A stretch of DNA of 41,015 bases from assembly GCA_028290355.1 (NCBI GenBank), contig JAQGKA010000012.1, positions 1 through 41,015 on the forward strand. The letters are read 5' to 3'. The position numbers and the translations under genes were made by a program. Below are positions 29,011 to 41,015 of this stretch, piece after piece (positions within the stretch are counted from its first letter, which is position 1; each line of letters opens with the position of its first letter). The notes beneath the pieces are model-generated. The model was not told where the DNA came from, did no database searches, and was given only the letters and a program-made list of their open reading frames with translations. This DNA comes from Tardiphaga sp. GTDB taxonomy: Bacteria > Pseudomonadota > Alphaproteobacteria > Rhizobiales > Xanthobacteraceae.

Positions 29011-30177
29011 ATGACTGATATCGACAAGCCGCTTGCTGGAATCACCGTGGTTGAACTCGGCCACAGCGTGGCGGCGCCTTATGCCGGGCTGATCTTGGCC
29101 GACCTCGGCGCGCGCGTGATCAAGGTGGAGAATCCGAAGACCGGTGATTATGCCCGCGGCTGGGGTCCGCCGTTCTTCAAGGACACGGCCAGCGCGTTCC
29201 ACAGCCTCAACCGCGGCAAGGAAGGCATCACGGTCGATTTCGGCAACGCGCGCGACTGTGAAAACCTGAAGTCGCTGATCCTGACGGAAGCCGATGCCGT
29301 CATTCAGAATCTGCGGCCCGGAATTCTGGACAAGTTCGGTCTCACCGCCGCGGCCTTGCGGGTCGAAAAGCCGGCGCTGATTTGGTGCGACATCGGTGCC
29401 TTCGGCAACAAGGGGCCGCTGGCCAGCAAGCCCGGCTACGATCCGCTGGCCCAGGCCAGCACCGGCATCATGAGCGTGACTGGGGAGGGCGGACGTCCGC
29501 CCGTGCGCGTCGGCGTCTCGCTGGTCGACATGGGCTCCGGCATGTGGTCGGTGATCGGCCTGCTGGCGGCCATGGTCGCCCGCGGCAAAAGCGGCAAAGG
29601 ACGCACCGTCTCCACCTCGCTGTACGAAACCGGGCTGGCCTGGATGACGGTGCCGCTGGCCGGCCATGCGGCATCGGGCGAGGTGCGCAAACCCTACGGC
29701 TCAGGCACGGCGGAGATCGCGCCCTATCAGGCCTTCGAAGCCAGCGACGGCTGGTTGATGATCGCCGCCGGCAACGACAACCTGTTTCGCAAGTTGTGCC
29801 CTGCCCTCGGCCTCGACGCGCTGGCCCGCGATCCCGACTTTGCGACCAATGCGGGAAGGGTCGGTCACCGCGATCGCCTGATCCCGCAGATTGAAACGGC
29901 GGTTCGCCTCCATACAGTCGATGCGCTCGGCGCGATTCTCGATCGGGCCGGCGTGCCCAACGCGCCGCTGCTCACCACCGACCAGGTGGCCGTGCATCCG
30001 CAGACCCGCGCGCTCGACATGACGGTGCGCTGTTCGGAGGACGACATCGATCTTGTCGGCATCCCGCTGTCGTTCGATGGCGCGCGGCCGCGGGCACGGA
30101 CGCCGGCCCCGGCGCTCGGCCAGCACAACGCCATCCTTCAAGCCGAAAGCAGCAAGGAAAAAGTCCATGCGGAGTGA
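29011..30177 (+). CDS. CaiB/BaiF family (class III) CoA-transferase
   Basis: Start MTDIDKPLAGITVVELGHSVAAPYAGLILADLGARVIKVENPKTGDYARGWGPP; FHSLNRGKEGITVDF; GYDPLAQASTGIMSVTGE. Confidence 0.92.
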   Translation: MTDIDKPLAGITVVELGHSVAAPYAGLILADLGARVIKVENPKTGDYARGWGPPFFKDTASAFHSLNRGKEGITVDFGNARDCENLKSLILTEADAVIQNLRPGILDKFGLTAAALRVEKPALIWCDIGAFGNKGPLASKPGYDPLAQASTGIMSVTGEGGRPPVRVGVSLVDMGSGMWSVIGLLAAMVARGKSGKGRTVSTSLYETGLAWMTVPLAGHAASGEVRKPYGSGTAEIAPYQAFEASDGWLMIAAGNDNLFRKLCPALGLDALARDPDFATNAGRVGHRDRLIPQIETAVRLHTVDALGAILDRAGVPNAPLLTTDQVAVHPQTRALDMTVRCSEDDIDLVGIPLSFDGARPRARTPAPALGQHNAILQAESSKEKVHAE

Positions 30178-30961
30178 TTTCGAAACCATCGCGGTGGAAC
30201 GGCGCGACGGCCATATCCTGCTCGTCACGCTGAACCGCCCGGAGGCCTCCAATGCGCTGAACACGCAGATGGGGCTCGACCTGGTGGCGCTGTTCGAGCC
30301 GCTGATGACCGATCTTGAAGGCTTGCGGGCCGTGATCGTGACCGGGCAGGGCACCAAGGCATTCTGTGCCGGCGGCGATCTGAAGCAGCGCAATGGCATG
30401 ACCGACGAGGCCTGGCAGGCCCAGCACCTGGTGTTCGAGCGCATGCTCCGTGCCATCCTGGCCTGTCCAATTCCGGTGATCGCCGCGGTCAACGGCGCCG
30501 CCTATGGCGGCGGCTGCGAGATCGCATCGGCCACCGACTTCGTCTACGCGTCGAGCAATGCGCGCTTTGCCCTGACTGAAGTCACCCTCGGCATCATGCC
30601 CGGCGGCGGCGGCACGCAGAACCTGCCACGCGCCGTAGGCGAGCGCCGCGCCAAGGAACTGATCCTGTCCGGCCTGCCGTTTTCGGCCGAGGAGGCGGAG
30701 CGCTGGGGGCTGGTCAACCGTGTGCTGCCGCCGGAGCAGCTGCTCGATGCGACCTTCGCCATCGCCGCGCGCATTGCCGGCAACGGGCCCATCTCGGTGC
30801 GCCAGGCAAAGCAAGCCATCCATCGGGGCTTGCAGATGTCTCTCTCTGACGGCCTGGCGTTCGAAATCGAAGCTTACAACCGGCTCGTTCCGACGGCGGA
30901 CCGCCGCGAGGGCGTGCTCGCTTTCAACGAACGCCGCAAGGCTGACTTTCAAGGCAAATAA
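30167..30961 (+). CDS. Enoyl-CoA hydratase/isomerase family protein
   Basis: LNRPEASNALNTQMG; KAFCAGGDLKQRNGM; AAVNGAAYGGGCEIASATDFVYAS. Confidence 0.92.
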   Translation: MRSDFETIAVERRDGHILLVTLNRPEASNALNTQMGLDLVALFEPLMTDLEGLRAVIVTGQGTKAFCAGGDLKQRNGMTDEAWQAQHLVFERMLRAILACPIPVIAAVNGAAYGGGCEIASATDFVYASSNARFALTEVTLGIMPGGGGTQNLPRAVGERRAKELILSGLPFSAEEAERWGLVNRVLPPEQLLDATFAIAARIAGNGPISVRQAKQAIHRGLQMSLSDGLAFEIEAYNRLVPTADRREGVLAFNERRKADFQGK

Positions 30962-30972
30962 AGGAGCGCAAC

Positions 30973-31908
30973 ATGCGCGAGAAAGCTTTCGTCCGTGAAG
31001 TTGGTCCCCGCGACGGCATCCAGATGGTCAAGATCATCCTGCCGACCGCGCAAAAGCTGGCGTGGTGCCGCGGCGCGGCGCAGGCCGGCATCCGCGATAT
31101 CGAAGTGACATCCTTCGTGCCGCCAAAGGTGATTCCGCAGTTTGCCGACGCGGAAGATGTGGCCAGGGGAGCCCTGACGATCGAAGGCCTGCGGCCTTCG
31201 GTTCTGGTGCCCAACCTGCGCGGCGCGGAACGCGCCTTCGCGCTCGACCTGCCGCTGGTCAACTACGTTCTGTCGGCAAGCGAGGAGCACAATCTCGCCA
31301 ACGTGCGCCGAAGCACCGAGGACTCGCTGCAGGACTTTGCGCGCATCGCCGCGGTCCGCGACCAGCGTGCCGGCAGGCGTGTTGCCCTCGGCGCGGGAGT
31401 TGCCACCGCGTTCGGCTGCACCATTTCCGGTGCGGTGTCGGAAGCGCGTGTGGTAGAGATCGCGGTGCGGCTCGCCGGGATGGGAGCGGATGAGATCATC
31501 ATCGCCGACACGGTGGGATATGCCGATCCCGGTCAGGTTCGCCGGCTGATGAGCAACGTGATTGCCGCTGTCAGCCCGCTGCCGGTAATCTGCCATTTCC
31601 ATGACACCCGTGGTCTCGGCCTCGCCAACGTCACTGCTGCGCTTGAGGCTGGCGTGCGCGGCTTCGACGCGTCGCTCGCGGGACTCGGCGGCTGCCCGTT
31701 CGCGCCGGGCGCGACCGGCAATATCGACACCGAAGACACCGTGTTCCTGCTCGAGCAGCTTGGCTTCGACACCGGCGCCGACGTCGAGCAACTCGTCGCC
31801 CTGCGCCGCGAGGTGGAGAGCTGGCTGCCCGGCGAACGCTTCTCCGGCGCCATCGCACGCGCCGGACTGCCGAAGACCTACCGCACGCCTGCAAAGGCCG
31901 CTGCCTGA
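30973..31908 (+). CDS. Hydroxymethylglutaryl-CoA lyase-family protein (HMGL-like)
   Basis: REVGPRDGIQ; IEVTSFVPPKVIPQFADAEDV; CHFHDTRGLGLANV; AGLGGCPFAPGATGNIDTED signature. Confidence 0.92.
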   Translation: MREKAFVREVGPRDGIQMVKIILPTAQKLAWCRGAAQAGIRDIEVTSFVPPKVIPQFADAEDVARGALTIEGLRPSVLVPNLRGAERAFALDLPLVNYVLSASEEHNLANVRRSTEDSLQDFARIAAVRDQRAGRRVALGAGVATAFGCTISGAVSEARVVEIAVRLAGMGADEIIIADTVGYADPGQVRRLMSNVIAAVSPLPVICHFHDTRGLGLANVTAALEAGVRGFDASLAGLGGCPFAPGATGNIDTEDTVFLLEQLGFDTGADVEQLVALRREVESWLPGERFSGAIARAGLPKTYRTPAKAAA

Positions 31909-31919
31909 AAGGATACCCG

Positions 31920-33119
31920 ATGAACTATCATGACACGAGCACCGAAGTCGCCGAGGTCACCGTTGTCCTGGGTGAAGACTTTCACGAGTTGCGCGATTCG
32001 GTGCGGCGCATCTGCCAGAAATTTCCCGGCGAATACTGGCGGGCACTCGACGACAACAGCGGCTATCCCACCGAATTCGTTGCCGCGCTGACCGAGGCCG
32101 GCTTTCTCGGCGCGCTGATCCCGGAGGAGTACGGCGGCTCCGGCCTGCCGCTGCGCGCTGCCGCGGTGATCCTGGAAGAGATCAATGCCAGTGGCTGCAG
32201 CGCCAGTCCGGCGCATGCGCAGATGTACATCATGGGCACGCTGCTTCGCCACGGCAGCGAGCAACAGAAGCGAAAGTACCTTCCGGAGATTGCCTCGGGA
32301 CGGCTGCGGCTGCAGGCCTTTGGCGTGACCGAACCGAACACCGGCTCCGATACCACCCAGCTTAAGACCCGCGCCGATCGCCAAGGCGACCATTACATCA
32401 TCAACGGCCAGAAGGTCTGGACGTCACGCGCGTTGCACTCCGATCTGATGCTGCTGCTGGCGCGCACCACGCCGATTGATCAGGTGAAGCGACGCACCGA
32501 CGGGCTTTCCGTTTTCCTGATCGACCTGCGAGAGGCCAAGGGCAACGGCGTCGAAATCCGTCCGATCAAGGCGATGATCAATCACAACACCACCGAGGTT
32601 TTCATCGAGAACCTGAGGGTGCCCGCCGCAAACCTGATCGGCGAGGAAGGGCAGGGCTTTCGATACATCCTCGACGGCATGAATGCCGAGCGCATCCTAG
32701 TCGCCTCTGAGTGCGTCGGCGACGGTCGCTGGCTGCTCAACAAGGGCGTCGCCTATGCCAACGAGCGGCAGGTGTTCGGCCGGCCGATCGGGCAGAACCA
32801 GGGCATCCAGTTTCCGCTGGCGCGGGCCTATGCCGAACTCGAAGCGGCCGACATGATGTGCCGGCGCGCGGCGGCCTTGTTTCAGGCAGGACTGCCGTGC
32901 GGTCCCGACGCCAACATCGCCAAGTTGCTGGCGTCGGAAGCCACCTGGAAAGCGGCGGACACGACGTTCCAGACCCACGGCGGATTCGCCTTTGCGCAGG
33001 AATACGACGTCGAGCGCAAATGGCGCGAAGTGCGCATCTATCAGACGGCTCCGATCTCCACCAACATGGTGCTCGCTTATGTCGCGCAGCATGTGCTCGG
33101 TCTTCCCCGATCCTATTAA
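31920..33119 (+). CDS. Acyl-CoA dehydrogenase family protein
   Basis: LQAFGVTEPNTGSDTTQLKTRADRQGDHYIINGQKVWTS; FQTHGGFAFAQEYDVERKWREVRIYQTAPISTNMV. Confidence 0.93.
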   Translation: MNYHDTSTEVAEVTVVLGEDFHELRDSVRRICQKFPGEYWRALDDNSGYPTEFVAALTEAGFLGALIPEEYGGSGLPLRAAAVILEEINASGCSASPAHAQMYIMGTLLRHGSEQQKRKYLPEIASGRLRLQAFGVTEPNTGSDTTQLKTRADRQGDHYIINGQKVWTSRALHSDLMLLLARTTPIDQVKRRTDGLSVFLIDLREAKGNGVEIRPIKAMINHNTTEVFIENLRVPAANLIGEEGQGFRYILDGMNAERILVASECVGDGRWLLNKGVAYANERQVFGRPIGQNQGIQFPLARAYAELEAADMMCRRAAALFQAGLPCGPDANIAKLLASEATWKAADTTFQTHGGFAFAQEYDVERKWREVRIYQTAPISTNMVLAYVAQHVLGLPRSY

Positions 33120-33129
33120 GGAGGCAACC

Positions 33130-34503
33130 ATGCTCGATATCACCCGGCAGACTGCAAACTTCGTTGCCAACTTCAATCCCGCCGATTTGCCTGACCGGTC
33201 GCGCGAAGCCGCGCGCACCGGCATCATCGACTGCGTCGGCGTGATGATCGCCGGCGCGGCTGAGCATCCGGTGCGCATCGTGTCGGCGATGCTCGCCGCG
33301 TCCACCCAGAACGACGGCGCGCCTGAAATTCCGTCCGGCCGCAATCTCAGCGCATCGGACGCTGCACTGGTCAACGGCGTGGCCGCACACGTGCTCGACT
33401 ACGATGACGTCGCGCTTGCCGGTCACCCGAGCGCCGTGCTGGTACCTGCAATTCTCGCGGAAGGATGGTCGCTGGATTCCAGCGGCGCCGAGGCCGTGGC
33501 CGCTTATGCGGCGGGGTACGAGGTCTGGGCACAGGTCGCCGCGCTCGAACCTGGCCACTATCACGAGCGTGGCTTTCATCCCACAGCAGTAATGGGAGCG
33601 CTGGCCACTGCCGCGGCATGCGCCCGGTTGCGCAAGCTCGATCGGGAAAAGACGGCCCATGCCATCGCCATCGCGTCGTCGCTGGCCTCCGGCCTAGTCG
33701 CCAACTTCGGCACGATGACCAAGTCGCTGCATGCCGGGCGCACGGCGCAATCGGGCGTGCTGGCGGCCCGCCTGGCCGATCAGGGATTCACCGGCTCCCT
33801 CGACGTGCTGGAACATCAGACCGGCTTTCTCCGCGCGCATTCGCCTTCTGGCACTCCGGACATCGAAGACGGAACGATCGATATCGGCGCCAACTGGCGG
33901 CTGGCCGAACTCGGCGTCAACGTGAAGCGCTATCCGACTTGTTACGCCACGCACCGCTCGATCGACGGCATGTTGGGGTTGGTGCGCGATCACGGCCTGA
34001 ATCCTGGCGACGTCAGGGAAATCCGCGTCCACACCGGCGTCACGCAAAAACTGATGCTCCGCAACAGCAATCCGCAGACCGGCCTCGAAGCCAAGTTCAG
34101 CATGGAGTTTGCGATGGCCGCGGCGCTCGTCGCCGGCCGGGTCGGGCTTGCCGAATTGACCGATGAGTTCGTGACGCGAACGGACGTCAGCGCCGCAGTG
34201 GCCAAGGTCAGCTGCACCACCACGGACGAGATCATGCCTGGCGACCAGCCGTTCGCGCCCACCGACCAGGTGAGCGTCGTGCTGGAATCCGGCAAGGTCC
34301 TGACTCATGCGCCGATCGCCCACGCTAAGGGAAGCTGGCAGCTGCCGCTGTCGCGCGACGAGCTGAAGGACAAGTTCATGGATTGCACCCTGCGTGTCCT
34401 GAGCCAGGCCCGCGCGGAGTCGCTGTTCGACCAGCTTTGGGACCTGGAGCAGGTTGGATCGGTCCGTTCGTTGCGCGTAACGGCGGACCGGATGGACGCA
34501 TGA
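33130..34503 (+). CDS. MmgE/PrpD family protein, second copy
   Basis: ORF 32992..34503; start MLDITRQTANFVANF at 33130; AAHVLDYDDVALAGHPSAVLVPAILAEG; KRYPTCYATHRSIDG. Confidence 0.9.
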   Translation: MLDITRQTANFVANFNPADLPDRSREAARTGIIDCVGVMIAGAAEHPVRIVSAMLAASTQNDGAPEIPSGRNLSASDAALVNGVAAHVLDYDDVALAGHPSAVLVPAILAEGWSLDSSGAEAVAAYAAGYEVWAQVAALEPGHYHERGFHPTAVMGALATAAACARLRKLDREKTAHAIAIASSLASGLVANFGTMTKSLHAGRTAQSGVLAARLADQGFTGSLDVLEHQTGFLRAHSPSGTPDIEDGTIDIGANWRLAELGVNVKRYPTCYATHRSIDGMLGLVRDHGLNPGDVREIRVHTGVTQKLMLRNSNPQTGLEAKFSMEFAMAAALVAGRVGLAELTDEFVTRTDVSAAVAKVSCTTTDEIMPGDQPFAPTDQVSVVLESGKVLTHAPIAHAKGSWQLPLSRDELKDKFMDCTLRVLSQARAESLFDQLWDLEQVGSVRSLRVTADRMDA

Positions 34504-35324
34504 TGTCGGCAGCTTCAGGTAGGACGTCGCCGCTTCGCATCTGGCATCAATCGGTCAATGAACTCGATCAGTTCTCCGTCTACAAGCGGGCATTGGAAGT
34601 CCATGCCGTCGAAGTGTTCGAAGACGCCGCGGAGCTCGTCGTCCACGGATTGCCGACGGGCACCTATGGTGGCGCCTCGGCAACGGCCGTCCTTGGCAAT
34701 GCCTATGCCTATCACCGTGCGCTCGGCCAGGTGATCGACAACGCCATCACCGCCGAACGTCAGGGCTACGACGCATTTGTAATCGGATCGTTCAGCGAGC
34801 CGTTCCTGCGCGAGATCCGGTCGGCTGTCGATATTCCGGTAGCATCGCTGACGGAGAGCAGCTTGCTCGTCGCATGCTTGCTGGGACGCTATGTGGCGCT
34901 GATCTCGAATGCTCCTGCCGTGCAGTGGATGACCAAGGTTGCCGTCGACAAGCACGGCCTCGGCGCGCGCGTGCTGGAAGTCGCGTCCATCGAGCCGGCG
35001 CTCGACGAGCCGGCACTGGCGCGCGCCTACGCCGATCCGGCGCCGGTGATCGCCAGCTTCACCGCCGCCGCCGAGCGCCTCGTGGCGCGCGGCGCTGACG
35101 TCATCATTCCTGCCGAAGGCGTGCTTGCCGAACTGCTGGTGCGCCACGGCGTCCGCGAGATTGCCGGCGCGCCGGTATTGGACGTGTTCGCGGTGACTTG
35201 GGCCTACGCGCTGATGCAGATCAGGCTGTGGTCCAGGACCGGACTTCGTGTCGGCCGCAGCTGGCACCACAGACGAGATGATCCTGCAATCGTTGCAAGG
35301 TTTTTTGAGGAGACTGCCCGATGA
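34500..35324 (+). CDS. Aspartate/glutamate/hydantoin racemase-like family protein lacking the canonical cysteines
   Basis: Start overlaps stop of previous gene; RIWHQSVNEL; YDAFVIGSFSEPFLREIRSAVDIPVASLTE; GADVIIPAEGVLAELL. Overall Asp/Glu racemase pattern. Confidence 0.78.
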   Translation: MMSAASGRTSPLRIWHQSVNELDQFSVYKRALEVHAVEVFEDAAELVVHGLPTGTYGGASATAVLGNAYAYHRALGQVIDNAITAERQGYDAFVIGSFSEPFLREIRSAVDIPVASLTESSLLVACLLGRYVALISNAPAVQWMTKVAVDKHGLGARVLEVASIEPALDEPALARAYADPAPVIASFTAAAERLVARGADVIIPAEGVLAELLVRHGVREIAGAPVLDVFAVTWAYALMQIRLWSRTGLRVGRSWHHRRDDPAIVARFFEETAR

Positions 35325-36208
35325 GCAATGCACCGCGCACGCAAGTGGACGGCGTCTACCATCGCAAACTCGGTGACGTACTCGTCACTGGCCTGAGCGA
35401 CGGCTATGTCGACATGGGATACGGAATTTTCCGCAACATCCCCGAGGAGGAAACCAAGGCGATTCTGGCGCGCGATCACCGCACGTCTCCGCCGCGCATT
35501 TCGGTCAACGCCTTTGCCCTGCGGATGGGTGGCAAGACCTACCTCATCGATTGCGGTTCGGCCGATATCATGGGGCCAACCTGCGGGCGCCTGCCGGCCA
35601 ATCTGGCTACCGCCGGTATCGACCCGGCGTCGGTGGATGGCGTGTTGCTGACTCATGTTCACCCCGACCACTCCAACGGACTGACGGATGCAGCGACCGG
35701 CAGACGGCTGTTTCCCAACGCCGAAGTCATTGTGCATGAGAGCGAGATCAACCACTGGTTCAACGATGAACTGATGGCCAGGGCCGCCGAGCGCCCACGT
35801 CGGCGTTATTTCGAGGCCGGTCGCACGCAGTTGTCGCCGTACATGGCGGCCGACCGGGTTCGCACGTTCAAGGGGGGCGAAATCCTTCCCGGTGTCACGG
35901 CGATCCCTGCTGCCGGTCACACGCCGGGCCATTCCGCCTACGTCATTTCCTCACAGGGGCAGTTAATGATCGTCTGGGGCGACACCGTCCATGTCCCGGA
36001 GATCCAGGTCGCACGGCCCGAGGTCACCATGGAATTCGATACCGATCCCGAGGCTGCCGCGATCGCCCGACAGAAGGTCTTCGACATGGTAGTCGCCGAC
36101 GACATGCTGGTCGGTGGCATGCATCTGCATTTCCCGGGTTTTGGACACATGCGGCGGGAAGCGGGGAAATATAGCCTGACGGCGGAGCAGTGGGCCTTTG
36201 ATATCTGA
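35321..36208 (+). CDS. MBL-fold metallo-hydrolase
   Basis: Zinc-binding motif LLTHVHPDHSNGL; AAGHTPGHSAYVI; ATGA overlap with upstream gene. Confidence 0.9.
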   Translation: MSNAPRTQVDGVYHRKLGDVLVTGLSDGYVDMGYGIFRNIPEEETKAILARDHRTSPPRISVNAFALRMGGKTYLIDCGSADIMGPTCGRLPANLATAGIDPASVDGVLLTHVHPDHSNGLTDAATGRRLFPNAEVIVHESEINHWFNDELMARAAERPRRRYFEAGRTQLSPYMAADRVRTFKGGEILPGVTAIPAAGHTPGHSAYVISSQGQLMIVWGDTVHVPEIQVARPEVTMEFDTDPEAAAIARQKVFDMVVADDMLVGGMHLHFPGFGHMRREAGKYSLTAEQWAFDI

Positions 36209-36381
36209 GAGCCGGGTGCGGCCAGAGAAATAACATCCTCCGTGGGGGGGCAGAACTGGCCGTTTCTACAGTGTGGCTGTTACTACGGGTTCGGCTGGCC
36301 CTTGAGATGCCGCTTCTGGCTTTTCAGGCTCATTTTTAGGTTACATTGGCGGCCCTGGCCGCAATGGTGATATATCGGCTC

Positions 36382-37413
36382 ATGGCAACTGGCAGAAGCA
36401 AGCTGACAATCCGCGATGTGGCGATTGCTGCCGGTGTCTCGACCGGAACGGTGTCCCGTGTCCTCAACTCCAACGCAACGGTTCGCCCGGATGTCCGCCG
36501 AAAAGTTCAGCGCGCTATCGATGAACTGGGGTTTGCGCCAAACGCGGTGGCGCGGAGCATGCGTAGTCGATCGACGCACACGATTGGCTGTATCCTCCGT
36601 GAAATCAACATTCCTCAGCTCGCGGGCTTCGTAAAAGCGGCTCATGACGCTTTGGATGATGAGGGATTTTCTCTCGTCATCTCCAATTCCGAAGGTCGAG
36701 AGGCACGGGAGCGCGAGTTGCTGAGTGGCCTGTCGAGCAGGCAGGCGGATGGGGTCATGATGGGGCCTTACACGCCGATCGAGGCGGATTTCGAGATCTT
36801 TTTGCGCGGACTGAAGATACCCATCGTGCTAATTGATCGCGATGCCCCGGAATGGGCGGACGCGGTGATGGCTGATCACGCGGGCGGCATGCGCGTGGCG
36901 GTTGGCCATTTGCTCGATCTTGGTCATCGTCGGATTGCCCTGATTACCGGTGAGCATGGCCTTTATCCGGCGAGCGAGCGCATCAGGGGGTATCGCGAAG
37001 CCTTCGCTGCAAGGGGCATTGAGTTCGATCCGTCACTCGTTCATTCCGGCAGCTTCTTGCCGGGCGCGGGATTCCGGATCACCTCGGCGACGCTGGGTCA
37101 GCGCAATCCCCCGACAGCCATCATTGCGGGCGGCCTTGATATGCTCTCCGGCGTACTGCGCGCCGTTCGGGGCAGGGAGCTTCGAATCCCCGAAGACGTC
37201 TCGGTCATAGCGTCCGGATACTCTGAGCTTTCAGAATTGGTGACCCCGCCCGTTGCCGTGATCGGGTGGGATCAAGGCGAGATTGGGCGTATCGCAGCCG
37301 GCATGTTGCTCGACCGAATTCGAAGCAACACTCCGCTGGAACCCCGCCGCGTCTTGGTCCCCAGCCAATTCGTTGTTCGGGCGTCGGTGGCCCCACCCAA
37401 ACGGCTCTCATGA
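36382..37413 (+). CDS. LacI-family transcriptional regulator
   Basis: ORF 36346..37413; start MATGRSKLTIRDVAIAAGVSTGTVSRVLNSNATVRPDVRRKVQRAIDELGFAPNAVARSMRS (LacI HTH + hinge); LacI C-terminal effector domain. Confidence 0.93.
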   Translation: MATGRSKLTIRDVAIAAGVSTGTVSRVLNSNATVRPDVRRKVQRAIDELGFAPNAVARSMRSRSTHTIGCILREINIPQLAGFVKAAHDALDDEGFSLVISNSEGREARERELLSGLSSRQADGVMMGPYTPIEADFEIFLRGLKIPIVLIDRDAPEWADAVMADHAGGMRVAVGHLLDLGHRRIALITGEHGLYPASERIRGYREAFAARGIEFDPSLVHSGSFLPGAGFRITSATLGQRNPPTAIIAGGLDMLSGVLRAVRGRELRIPEDVSVIASGYSELSELVTPPVAVIGWDQGEIGRIAAGMLLDRIRSNTPLEPRRVLVPSQFVVRASVAPPKRLS

Positions 37414-37550: not shown

Positions 37551-37621
37551 CTCGTTGGAATATCGTGTTCAGGTAGAGCGAATAGTTATCTCAATAACAT
37601 ACGAGTTCGTAGTTTTATTCT

Positions 37622-37637
37622 GAATGGCGCGCCATTC
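37622..37637. repeat. 16-bp perfect palindrome
   Basis: GAATGGCGCGCCATTC, self-complementary, intergenic. Confidence 0.6.
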
Positions 37638-37729
37638 CTGAACAGAGCAGCGAACATGTTATCGCTCGTGGACCGGGTGTCCATTTCAAAACGGACGCGC
37701 CTTCTGGGCCGGATGCATCCGCTTTGAGT

Positions 37730-37752: not shown

Positions 37753-37889
37753 CTTCGGCCTCGGTCTCTGTTTGTTTAACTATCAAACGCTGCCTGAGCG
37801 AATTCTTGACTGCTATTGTCCCGCGCTTCAGTGGGGCGAAGCAATTCTGCTGTCAGACTGATGTACCCGAGGCACGGAGCGATTGTCAG

Positions 37890-37911
37890 GTGGTACACGA
37901 GAGTGGTACAC
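37890..37911. repeat. Paired direct repeat, 13-bp period (candidate integrase arm-type site, left)
   Basis: GTGGTACAC-GAGA-GTGGTACAC. Confidence 0.55.
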
Positions 37912-37981
37912 AGCGTTCCGACCGGGCTGCGAAGAACCGCTGATTATTTGGGTTTTCTGCATTATCGGAGATGCTGGAAGA

Positions 37982-38001
37982 GAGTCCCACTCTCTCCGCC
38001 A
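37982..38001 (+). other. tRNA-Ser 3'-end fragment (candidate attachment-site core)
   Basis: GAGTCCCACTCTCTCCGCCA matches the end of the T-loop, T-stem 3' strand (CCCAC), acceptor 3' strand (TCTCTCC), discriminator G and CCA of a serine-type tRNA; the rest of a tRNA is absent upstream. Confidence 0.6.
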
Positions 38002-38066
38002 GCCACAAAATAGTGGCCAAAAACCAAGCGAAATCAGCAACTTCTGCAAGTCCCTATTTCTTCTGT

Positions 38067-38088
38067 GTAGCACCTGAGAGTAGCACCT
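38067..38088. repeat. Paired direct repeat, 13-bp period (candidate integrase arm-type site, right)
   Basis: GTAGCACCT-GAGA-GTAGCACCT, same layout and spacer as 37890-37911. Confidence 0.5.
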
Positions 38089-38354: not shown

Positions 38355-38589
38355 TTCTAATACGGGGGACCAAGCGACTGGTCGCAGCAGCGAAAGCGGG
38401 AGCCTGACGCCCAGCGCCGAAACGGGAGGGCGCATTTCGTGGTGCTGCCCCCATCGGGAACTGTCCGGTCGTGGGGATCATCTTCTCGTCACGAGGCGGA
38501 TGCCGCGGGCCAGCGGCATCTCGATGCTATACCGATTGCAAGGCGGCGATCGCTTGAGCAGGGCCAGCGCGAACGCAGGACGGTTTCCG

Positions 38590-39424
38590 ATGTCCCTTTC
38601 CGACGTATATCGTGATCGCCACACAACACCGGGCTGGGTATACATTCAGGGTTCGGCCTCCGAGCGTCTGCTGAAGTTCGGCGTCACCATAAATCTTCGG
38701 CAACGGACCGGAAGCAACCGAACCCGGAAATATGGCGGCATCGGCGATTGGCGACTCCTCTATCGGGTCTGGGTCGAGGAGAGTGGAAGGGTCGAAAGCG
38801 ACGCCCTCAAGCTGCTGAGGCGACATGCCGTAAGACGATCATATCTGAAAGACGGGCGTCCCCAACGGACGCGCGAAATGGTAGACTGCGCGTTCAGCGA
38901 CGCGCTTGCGGCCCTCGAGCAGAGGTTGACCGAAAGCGAGCGAGCCAGCGGCTGGCGATCTGGCGATGCGGTCTTCTATGAATTCGGGACTGTTAGCGAA
39001 GACGAAGATTTGGTGTGTCGGAAGGATCCGCGGGCTCCCGTCGGCCTGCCGGAAGGCTACATCTACTTCCTTCCGACCGCCGAGCTCGAACTATCGGTGC
39101 GTTCGGAGAACTGTCTTGCGAACGAAGGAATCGTCCACTTAGGCTCGCTAGTCACCAGGTCGGAAGCCGAATTGCTACGCGTCCCCAACTTCGGACGCAA
39201 GCCTCTCAACGAGATCAAGGCGGCGCTCGCGCAGTTGGGGCTCCGCCTTGGCACCGGGATTCCGGATTGGCCGCCTCCCGACTTAGCGGAGCTGTCAGAA
39301 CGCATCGGTCCGTTGCTCAAGCGGGTGGATGAGCTGTCGCTGTCGATCCGGACGGCCAACTGCCTCGAGAAAGAGGACCTGTTCTACATCGGCGAGCTCG
39401 TGTGTTATTCGGCCTGCAATATTG
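38590..39424 (+). pseudogene. GIY-YIG/T5orf172-like domain fused to tandem RNA polymerase alpha-CTD-like domains; 3' end interrupted by the adjacent IS element
   Basis: ORF 38500..39462; likely start [16 protein letters not shown] at 38590. N-term GWVYI...[16 protein letters not shown]...[25 protein letters not shown] is GIY-YIG/T5orf172-like. Then [57 protein letters not shown] (alpha-CTD) and [25 protein letters not shown] (second alpha-CTD, broken). Confidence 0.75.
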
Positions 39425-41015
39425 GCTCTAACGCAATTTTGGTGCAGCCGTGGATCATGTAGCTCCGATCAGACGAGCCTGAAGCAAGTCAAGCTTCGCG
39501 CGACCGTACATTTGGCGTTTGACCAGCTTGAGCTTGGTGATTTGGCCCTCCGTTTGTCCGTTGGACCAGAACGTTGTGATCGCTGCATTGACCGCAGCCT
39601 TGTCCTTGATGACGCCGTTGGCAAAAGAGGAGACGAGGCTTGCGCGTGCGCGTTCTATCCATGGGTCCAGATCTCCGTGAGCCTTCTTGCGGATCATTAC
39701 GTGGAATGCAGCGATGATCTCGCGAGCTTCCACTAGGAGAGGAACGCCTTGCTCTATCGCTGCGATGGTGACGGTCTCCGACTTTGATAGCGTATCGCGG
39801 CCGTTGGTCATCAGGCGGGCAATCGTTCTCGCGGACGGGACGCGCTGCAGGCTCCGAGTATCGGGCGTTTCGGCACGCCGACGGCGTGTCGCCCATTCTG
39901 TCACAACTCGCACCGAGCCCCGAAAACCCTGCGCCTTGAGGCAACGCCACAGGTCCGCGCCGTTGCGATGACCTGCAGCCCACTGAGCATCGAGCCATGG
40001 CAGGTGGTGATCGAGCGAGCTCTCCCGCATCCTGAACACATCGGATCGCTGACCTCGCAGCACCCTGCGGACAAGGCCCCGGCTATGTCCGGTGAGCCGT
40101 ACGATCTCCTTTATAGGGACGCCCGTCTCGGCCTGTTTGAGGATTGTCGTGTTGGTGTCCTCTCTCCGAAGATAACCCTCGTACTGGACGCGCTCGGCGG
40201 CCGTCAGCAAGTCGGGGTTTATGGTGGCAGAGCCGACCGCGACGCGGACCTGGCGCATCGATTTGCGTACCGCATCCAGGAAGGCGTGGCTGGCATTCTC
40301 CATGAGATGCCAGCGGTCAGCGACCTGGATAGCGTGCGGGAGCGCCTTGGCCGCAGCAAGGGCGTAACCGCCGCCACGGTCCCGCGCGACCAAAGTGATC
40401 TGCGGGTGCCCCGAGAGCCAGGCCTGCGCGGTGGCTGGCTCTCTGTCGGGTAAGAGAATGATTGGTCGTCGCCGCTCGAGGTCGCAGATAATTGTTCCGT
40501 ACCGCTGATTGCGCCGCCAGGCCCAGTCGTCGATGCCGATAACACTCGGCGCAACAAAGGGCGGACACCCACGCCTTCGGACCACCCGAAGTAACGTATC
40601 GTTGCTCGCGGGGAGCATAAGCCTACGGGCAAGCCTCGCCGCCGGCCGGCCACCCAGGGCTAGGCCGAGGTGATGGACGACCAAATCGAGCCGCGCCGTT
40701 CGCCGCGCCCACGGCGCAAGAGCGCCGTCATTGAAGCGTTCGGTGAAAATACGTCGACCACACATAACGGTAACGCAGCGGAAGCGGCGTGCCACGACCA
40801 CCAGACGAACGGTGCGCCCCGCGAGCGGTAGATCGGTGAGGCGTCGCCGATACCGGCTGTGGATCCGCCCAGAACTGGCTCCGCATCCCGGACAGAGGCT
40901 CGTGTCGCTCGTGGGACGGACAGCAATCACGATCGCGGCGCCGTCGCGAACGGCGCTCTCCACGTCAAACCCGCGAGGGACCAAGGCCGACGGACGTAGG
41001 GCTCGCTGCATCATG
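39424..41015 (-). mobile_element. ISL3-family-like insertion sequence (partial in window)
   Basis: Transposase ORF on minus strand plus candidate end GGCTCTAACGCAATTTTG beginning about 39424 where the upstream gene loses homology; other end lies outside the window. Confidence 0.6.
39455..41014 (-). CDS. ISL3-family-like transposase
   Basis: 519 aa: [40 protein letters not shown] zinc-ribbon N-terminus; [98 protein letters not shown]. Confidence 0.93.

Follow-up and report, generated by a model that had tools for sequence, protein, structure and literature searches.

A two-armed tRNA-Ser attachment site in Tardiphaga as a probable junction between two different tandem genomic islands

Introduction

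Near its right end, contig C45 of a draft Tardiphaga sp. genome (684 contigs, 77.65% complete) carries a 20-bp sequence resembling the 3' end of a tRNA-Ser, flanked on both sides by a pair of short repeats. This whole contig (JAQGKA010000012.1, 41,015 nucleotides), hereafter the window, raises a simple question: what is a site that displays the arms of an attachment site on both sides of a tRNA fragment and lacks a tRNA gene? A previous sequence-only reading saw in it the classic layout of an attP, the attachment site of a tyrosine recombinase, and proposed that it might be the hybrid junction of two tandemly integrated islands. Our comparative analysis makes it probable that the site is indeed a hybrid attR(A)/attL(B) junction, where an island of one type (A, to the left) meets a different island (type B, to the right) at a duplicated tRNA-Ser 3' end.

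Results

On the forward strand, the left arm pair, GTGGTACAC-GAGA-GTGGTACAC (37890-37911), is separated by 70 bp from the core GAGTCCCACTCTCTCCGCCA (37982-38001), which is followed after another 65 bp by the right arm pair, GTAGCACCT-GAGA-GTAGCACCT (38067-38088). Both pairs have a 13-bp period, and all the coordinates, sequences and spacings given by the sequence-only reading proved exact when checked on the window sequence. The gapped-pair patterns of the two arm pairs never appeared in 100 dinucleotide shuffles of the window, and only three 9-mers recur at +13 in the 41 kb, two of them being the left and right arm repeats. The arm repeats are pseudo-palindromic (GTG...CAC), with 14/23 identities in direct alignment versus 17/24 in inverted alignment, so their relative direction is ambiguous, and we dropped arm orientation as an argument.

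The core shared with other loci is slightly longer, GAGAGTCCCACTCTCTCCGCCA (37980-38001, forward strand). Only a copy of a tRNA 3' end, and no tRNA gene, is found at the window site. The same genome encodes, on contig C586, an intact tRNA-Ser(GGA) ending in GAATCCCACTCTCTCCGCCA, which matches the core at 19 of 20 positions. The left extension of the core, GAGAG, is not tRNA sequence, the tRNA reading GGTTCGAATCC at that place, and the resulting 22-mer forms a GAGAG/CTCTC dyad, which would fit the expectation for an attachment-site core. Further copies of this core, expected if it bounds islands, do exist: the exact 22-mer occurs in 9 of 399 genomes of the family, including the source genome, and a public genome collection yielded it in 18 stretches, most of them from Bradyrhizobium, the others belonging to Tardiphaga, two Komagataeibacter records and one Lentisphaeria bin. 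The stretch L113, from a bin assigned to Lentisphaeria (UBA7640), and the Komagataeibacter stretches L117 and L126 show the 22-nt core with paired arm-like repeats that are alike on both sides; no integrase open reading frame (ORF) is evident within these fetched stretches.

The DNA at 37888-38001 (forward strand, core included) aligns with termini in genomes G012, G318, G375, G399, G426, G431 and others as the integrase-distal terminus (attR) of the left island. Counterparts of this left terminus stand ahead of similar cores at no fewer than 14 further loci of Nitrobacteraceae, the flanks being for the most part unrelated; the arm pair there typically reads GGTGGTACAC-nnn-GGTGGTCAC and begins 90 to 94 bp upstream of the core. 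When 14 loci were aligned all-against-all, homology extended from ~155 bp before the core's end up to the core end, and the DNA further left was unrelated, save for two locus pairs with longer shared stretches. In G431, the sequence that follows the core on its right matches, in collinear order, the native DNA downstream of tRNA-Ser(GGA) in G375 (79% identity over 224 bp) and G399 (74% over 213 bp), the arrangement that an attR would be expected to present. The other end of such islands is visible in Tardiphaga G012, where a tRNA-Ser(CGA) is immediately followed downstream by a DUF6538 tyrosine integrase, with GGTGGTACAC-AGG-AGTGGACAC between the core and the integrase start codon; 82.9 kb away come GTGGTACAC-AGT-GGTGGCCAC, ~70 bp and then the core again. 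This layout places the type A integrase at the tRNA end and makes the window left arm the distal end. Likewise, G376 has a DUF6538-type integrase at its tRNA-Ser(CGA) and two more core copies with TGGTACACAC arms ~29 and ~39 kb further on, and thus a tandem series.

On the other side of the core, the proximal terminus (attL side) of the right, type B island occupies 38002-38088 on the forward strand. It belongs to a second kind of terminus, composed of the core, ~80 bp and repeats of GGTGTAGCAC or GGTGGAGCAC, to which the window right arm corresponds by position. Its geometry is that of G375, G399, G426 and others, with little direct identity beyond the core, and a decayed relative of it lies in Tardiphaga G006 (81% identity over 81 bp, core included). 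Right termini resemble one another mostly over the first 105-110 bp, counted from the core start. They recur with nearly all flanks different and, once, directly after an intact tRNA-Ser(CGA) (in G109). We rejected the idea that the right flank is a native tRNA flank, as beyond ~105-110 bp the DNA differs between nearly all genomes, the exception being one pair (G376 and G404) that shares more. In Tardiphaga G003, the start of an integrase gene lies immediately next to GTGTAGCACC-CCT-GTGTAGCACA, repeats of the TGTGTAGCAC type, followed by the same 22-nt core, a layout that sets the type B integrase at the end away from the window right terminus. Two other arrangements of right termini were seen. 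Bradyrhizobium erythrophlei GAS478 (stretch L127) has two copies of the core and right terminus separated by only ~250 bp, resembling a minimal element, and G413 (contig C70, positions 231412 and 238172; stretches L105 and L109) has near-identical copies at a distance of 6.8 kb, which resemble each other in their left flanks and probably form a small tandem series.

Left and right termini thus each recur separately with other neighbours, and they are also found joined. The most informative case is G375, a member of the Bradyrhizobium group assembled in 4 contigs and 100% complete, which has three co-oriented core/tRNA copies in a row over 150 kb. The first is an intact tRNA-Ser(CGA) (493263-493352). 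The middle core, at 552533, is flanked by a left arm pair (552437) and by seven tandem 13-bp right-arm units (552611-552700; stretches L080 and L100), reproducing the layout of the window at the point where a 59-kb island gives way to one of 91 kb. The third core, at 643395, is preceded by a DUF6538 integrase (641656-643296) that reads away from it, starts ~100 bp to its left and sits behind GGTGTAGACCCTC-GGTGTAGAACC. The order is therefore tRNA-Ser, 59-kb island, two-armed site, 91-kb island, integrase and third core copy. Another integrase at 547475, 4.5 kb left of the junction, was set aside as presumably IS91-associated, judging from its sequence and its neighbour. G399 and G426 also contain two-armed sites comparable to that of the window; no second core was found downstream in the 130 kb examined in G399 or the 45 kb examined in G426. 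These homologous sites, above all the complete G375 array, support both the identification of an attachment site and the tandem junction proposed by the sequence-only reading.

The arm motifs tell the two sides apart. The same motif is found at both ends of an island, TACAC in G012 and G376 and TGTAG in the second island of G375. In the window, the left arms belong to the TACAC kind, seen at both ends of one island type, and the right arms to the TAGCAC kind, found in another type. If the site came from one element, its arms should share their motif left and right, as they do at the two ends of the G012 and G376 islands, so that the differing motifs across the window core argue for attR(A)/attL(B). 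Accordingly, the description of the site as a classic attP layout is retained insofar as this is an attachment site, with a core dyad and arms on both sides, but not as the attP of one element.

The 13-bp period also recurs beside the integrase genes. Upstream of 16 such integrase genes, 13 bp was the best repeat offset in 12 and tied for best in a thirteenth (offsets 6-23 compared), and this prevalence makes the period look like an arm property of the DUF6538 integrase group. The tRNAs beside these genes, where seen, are tRNA-Ser, -His, -Leu, -Thr and -Phe. DUF6538 was matched by 10 of 12 of these proteins scanned, eight of them above the Pfam cut-off; of the other two, one matches integrase domains only and one matches nothing. 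PF00589 alone misses or barely scores the relevant integrases, and that of G375 matches only DUF6538. We found no paper naming DUF6538 in the literature searched, a PDB search with the G012 integrase returned nothing useful, and the plasmid and viral collections yielded no match. The adjacent tyrosine integrase that an attP would lead one to expect is missing from the window contig, which contains neither an integrase nor an integrase relic; the model islands explain this, as they carry their integrases at their far ends. Elsewhere in the source genome, contig C617 (stretch L014, 8545-10643) encodes a 675-aa tyrosine integrase. Fewer than 60 bp separate the 3' end of this gene from a larger tRNA-Ser(GGA) 3' fragment, and another island of the genome probably terminates here.

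The rest of the window corresponds to cargo. Positions 1-37887 (no strand assigned) hold a cluster of catabolic and transport genes, recognized from their Pfam domains, as the right-hand part of the left island, whose left end lies beyond the contig. We infer that the DNA left of 37888 belongs to a type A island. The last gene of the cluster codes for a LacI-family regulator (36346-37413), present in 4 of 398 other genomes of the family, none of the same genus. No synteny was detected for 30000-37400 in 17 other Tardiphaga genomes, only single-gene matches at ~72%. A dispersed repeat of ~50 bp with the palindrome TACGAGTTCGTA lies at 37582-37638, 250 bp left of the attachment site; it occurs tens of times in Tardiphaga genomes, with 84-94% identity. 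To the right of 38001, ~3 kb of the type B island are visible, including an ORF with RNA polymerase alpha C-terminal type domains (38500-39462, forward strand), the N-terminal part of which we take, by eye only, to be GIY-YIG-like. This ORF was probably cut short by an ISL3 element, whose transposase (39455-41014, reverse strand) closes the visible sequence, the contig ending inside or at the element.

Discussion

The comparison suggests a simple organization. The left arm pair and the core would close the type A island at the end away from its DUF6538 integrase, which would lie at the tRNA-proximal end. From this core the type B island would begin, its first arm pair again being the integrase-distal one and its integrase lying at the far end. 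Each integrase would attach to the arm repeats of 13-bp spacing at the two ends of its island and bring them to the core, and recombination between two core copies would excise one island, or both together. The anatomy of the site, its homology with other termini and the same order of parts in another genome are direct observations; which integrases serve this contig, their binding to the arms and any activity are what we infer from the model islands.

Several observations weigh against this reading. The direction of the arms lends no support to tandem islands. The window right terminus aligns well only with G006, kind B is drawn from one complete island and one contig end, and for several right termini no core or integrase was found within 60-140 kb. 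The draft has no full-length DUF6538 integrase, only a 155-aa fragment on contig C467; in an assembly 78% complete and split into 684 contigs, this absence carries little weight. As for the anchor of the array, the DNA downstream of the intact tRNA-Ser(GGA) on C586 partly matches the flank of G003 over a short stretch (38 bp), so this tRNA seems to keep its native flank and appears unoccupied; it is probably not the anchor. The array may instead sit in another tRNA-Ser, by analogy with G375; no anchoring tRNA was found in the draft, in which tRNA-Ser(CGA) was not searched.

The missing integrase also feeds a fair rival, namely that the seam has decayed: the termini would be the same but the integrases lost, leaving the islands immobile or moved only by the integrase of another element, as in cis-mobilizable elements. 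The lone integrase fragment of the draft, the several right termini that stand alone elsewhere and the degenerate copy in G006 would agree with it, whereas the incompleteness of the draft and the intact state of the core and of both arm pairs speak against it, and we regard decay as unlikely. Somewhat less likely still is an intact attP of a single element, either as a circular form in the assembly or as the same element in two tandem copies. An attP is indeed laid out in this way, its core lying between two arm pairs at distances of about 90 and 65-85 bp, and the two-armed Komagataeibacter and Lentisphaeria sites have like arms on both sides. However, the islands that we observed have an integrase start next to one arm pair, and the window has none on either side, with ~470 bp between the left arms and the LacI gene and a right side devoid of integrase; together with the differing arm motifs, this leads us not to favour it. 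Lastly, although the 20-mer, taken by itself, might be a stray remnant of a tRNA and repeats of the GTG...CAC form are simple, a chance arrangement of simple repeats near such a remnant is already refuted by the homologous sites, with zero occurrences expected in shuffles and a geometry conserved in many independent loci.

If the tandem junction holds, this 200-bp signature marks seams between islands, and island ends at tRNA-Ser become callable even when no integrase is nearby, which matters for the broken-up genomes obtained from metagenomes. A 13-bp period in the arms upstream of genes for DUF6538 integrases offers in turn a rule that can be used to locate their attachment sites, and the catabolic gene cluster of the source organism can be flagged as probably mobile cargo. 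More tentatively, there might be two island families with integrases at opposite ends that share one tRNA-Ser core and stack as A then B, as in the window, G375, G399 and G426, in which case the junction, bearing arms for both integrases, could let either or both of them mobilize a composite island.

Several known systems resemble this site in part. In Bradyrhizobium japonicum USDA6, multiple duplicated tRNA portions occur at trnK, trnQ and trnI, and such duplicates in USDA6 and USDA110 have been interpreted as independent islands that share one integration site (PMC3927601). The window shares with them the duplicated tRNA portions and the bacterial family, but its core derives from tRNA-Ser and its seam is resolved with both arm pairs. 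Tandem islands in one tRNA gene are also documented in the Islander database, whose islands are bounded by a tRNA gene and a tRNA fragment and have a tyrosine integrase and an attP of ~250 bp (PMC4383910); unlike them, the window contig shows no integrase. The stacking of unlike elements at a common core by site-specific integration recalls the accretion of integrative and conjugative elements (ICE) and cis-mobilizable elements (CIME). Finally, a core dyad flanked on either side by paired arm repeats is reminiscent of a lambda-type attP, with the difference that the arm pairs of the window come most likely from two elements and that their 13-bp period is tied to DUF6538 integrases. Tandem tRNA islands were already known in this bacterial family, to which the window site adds one case.
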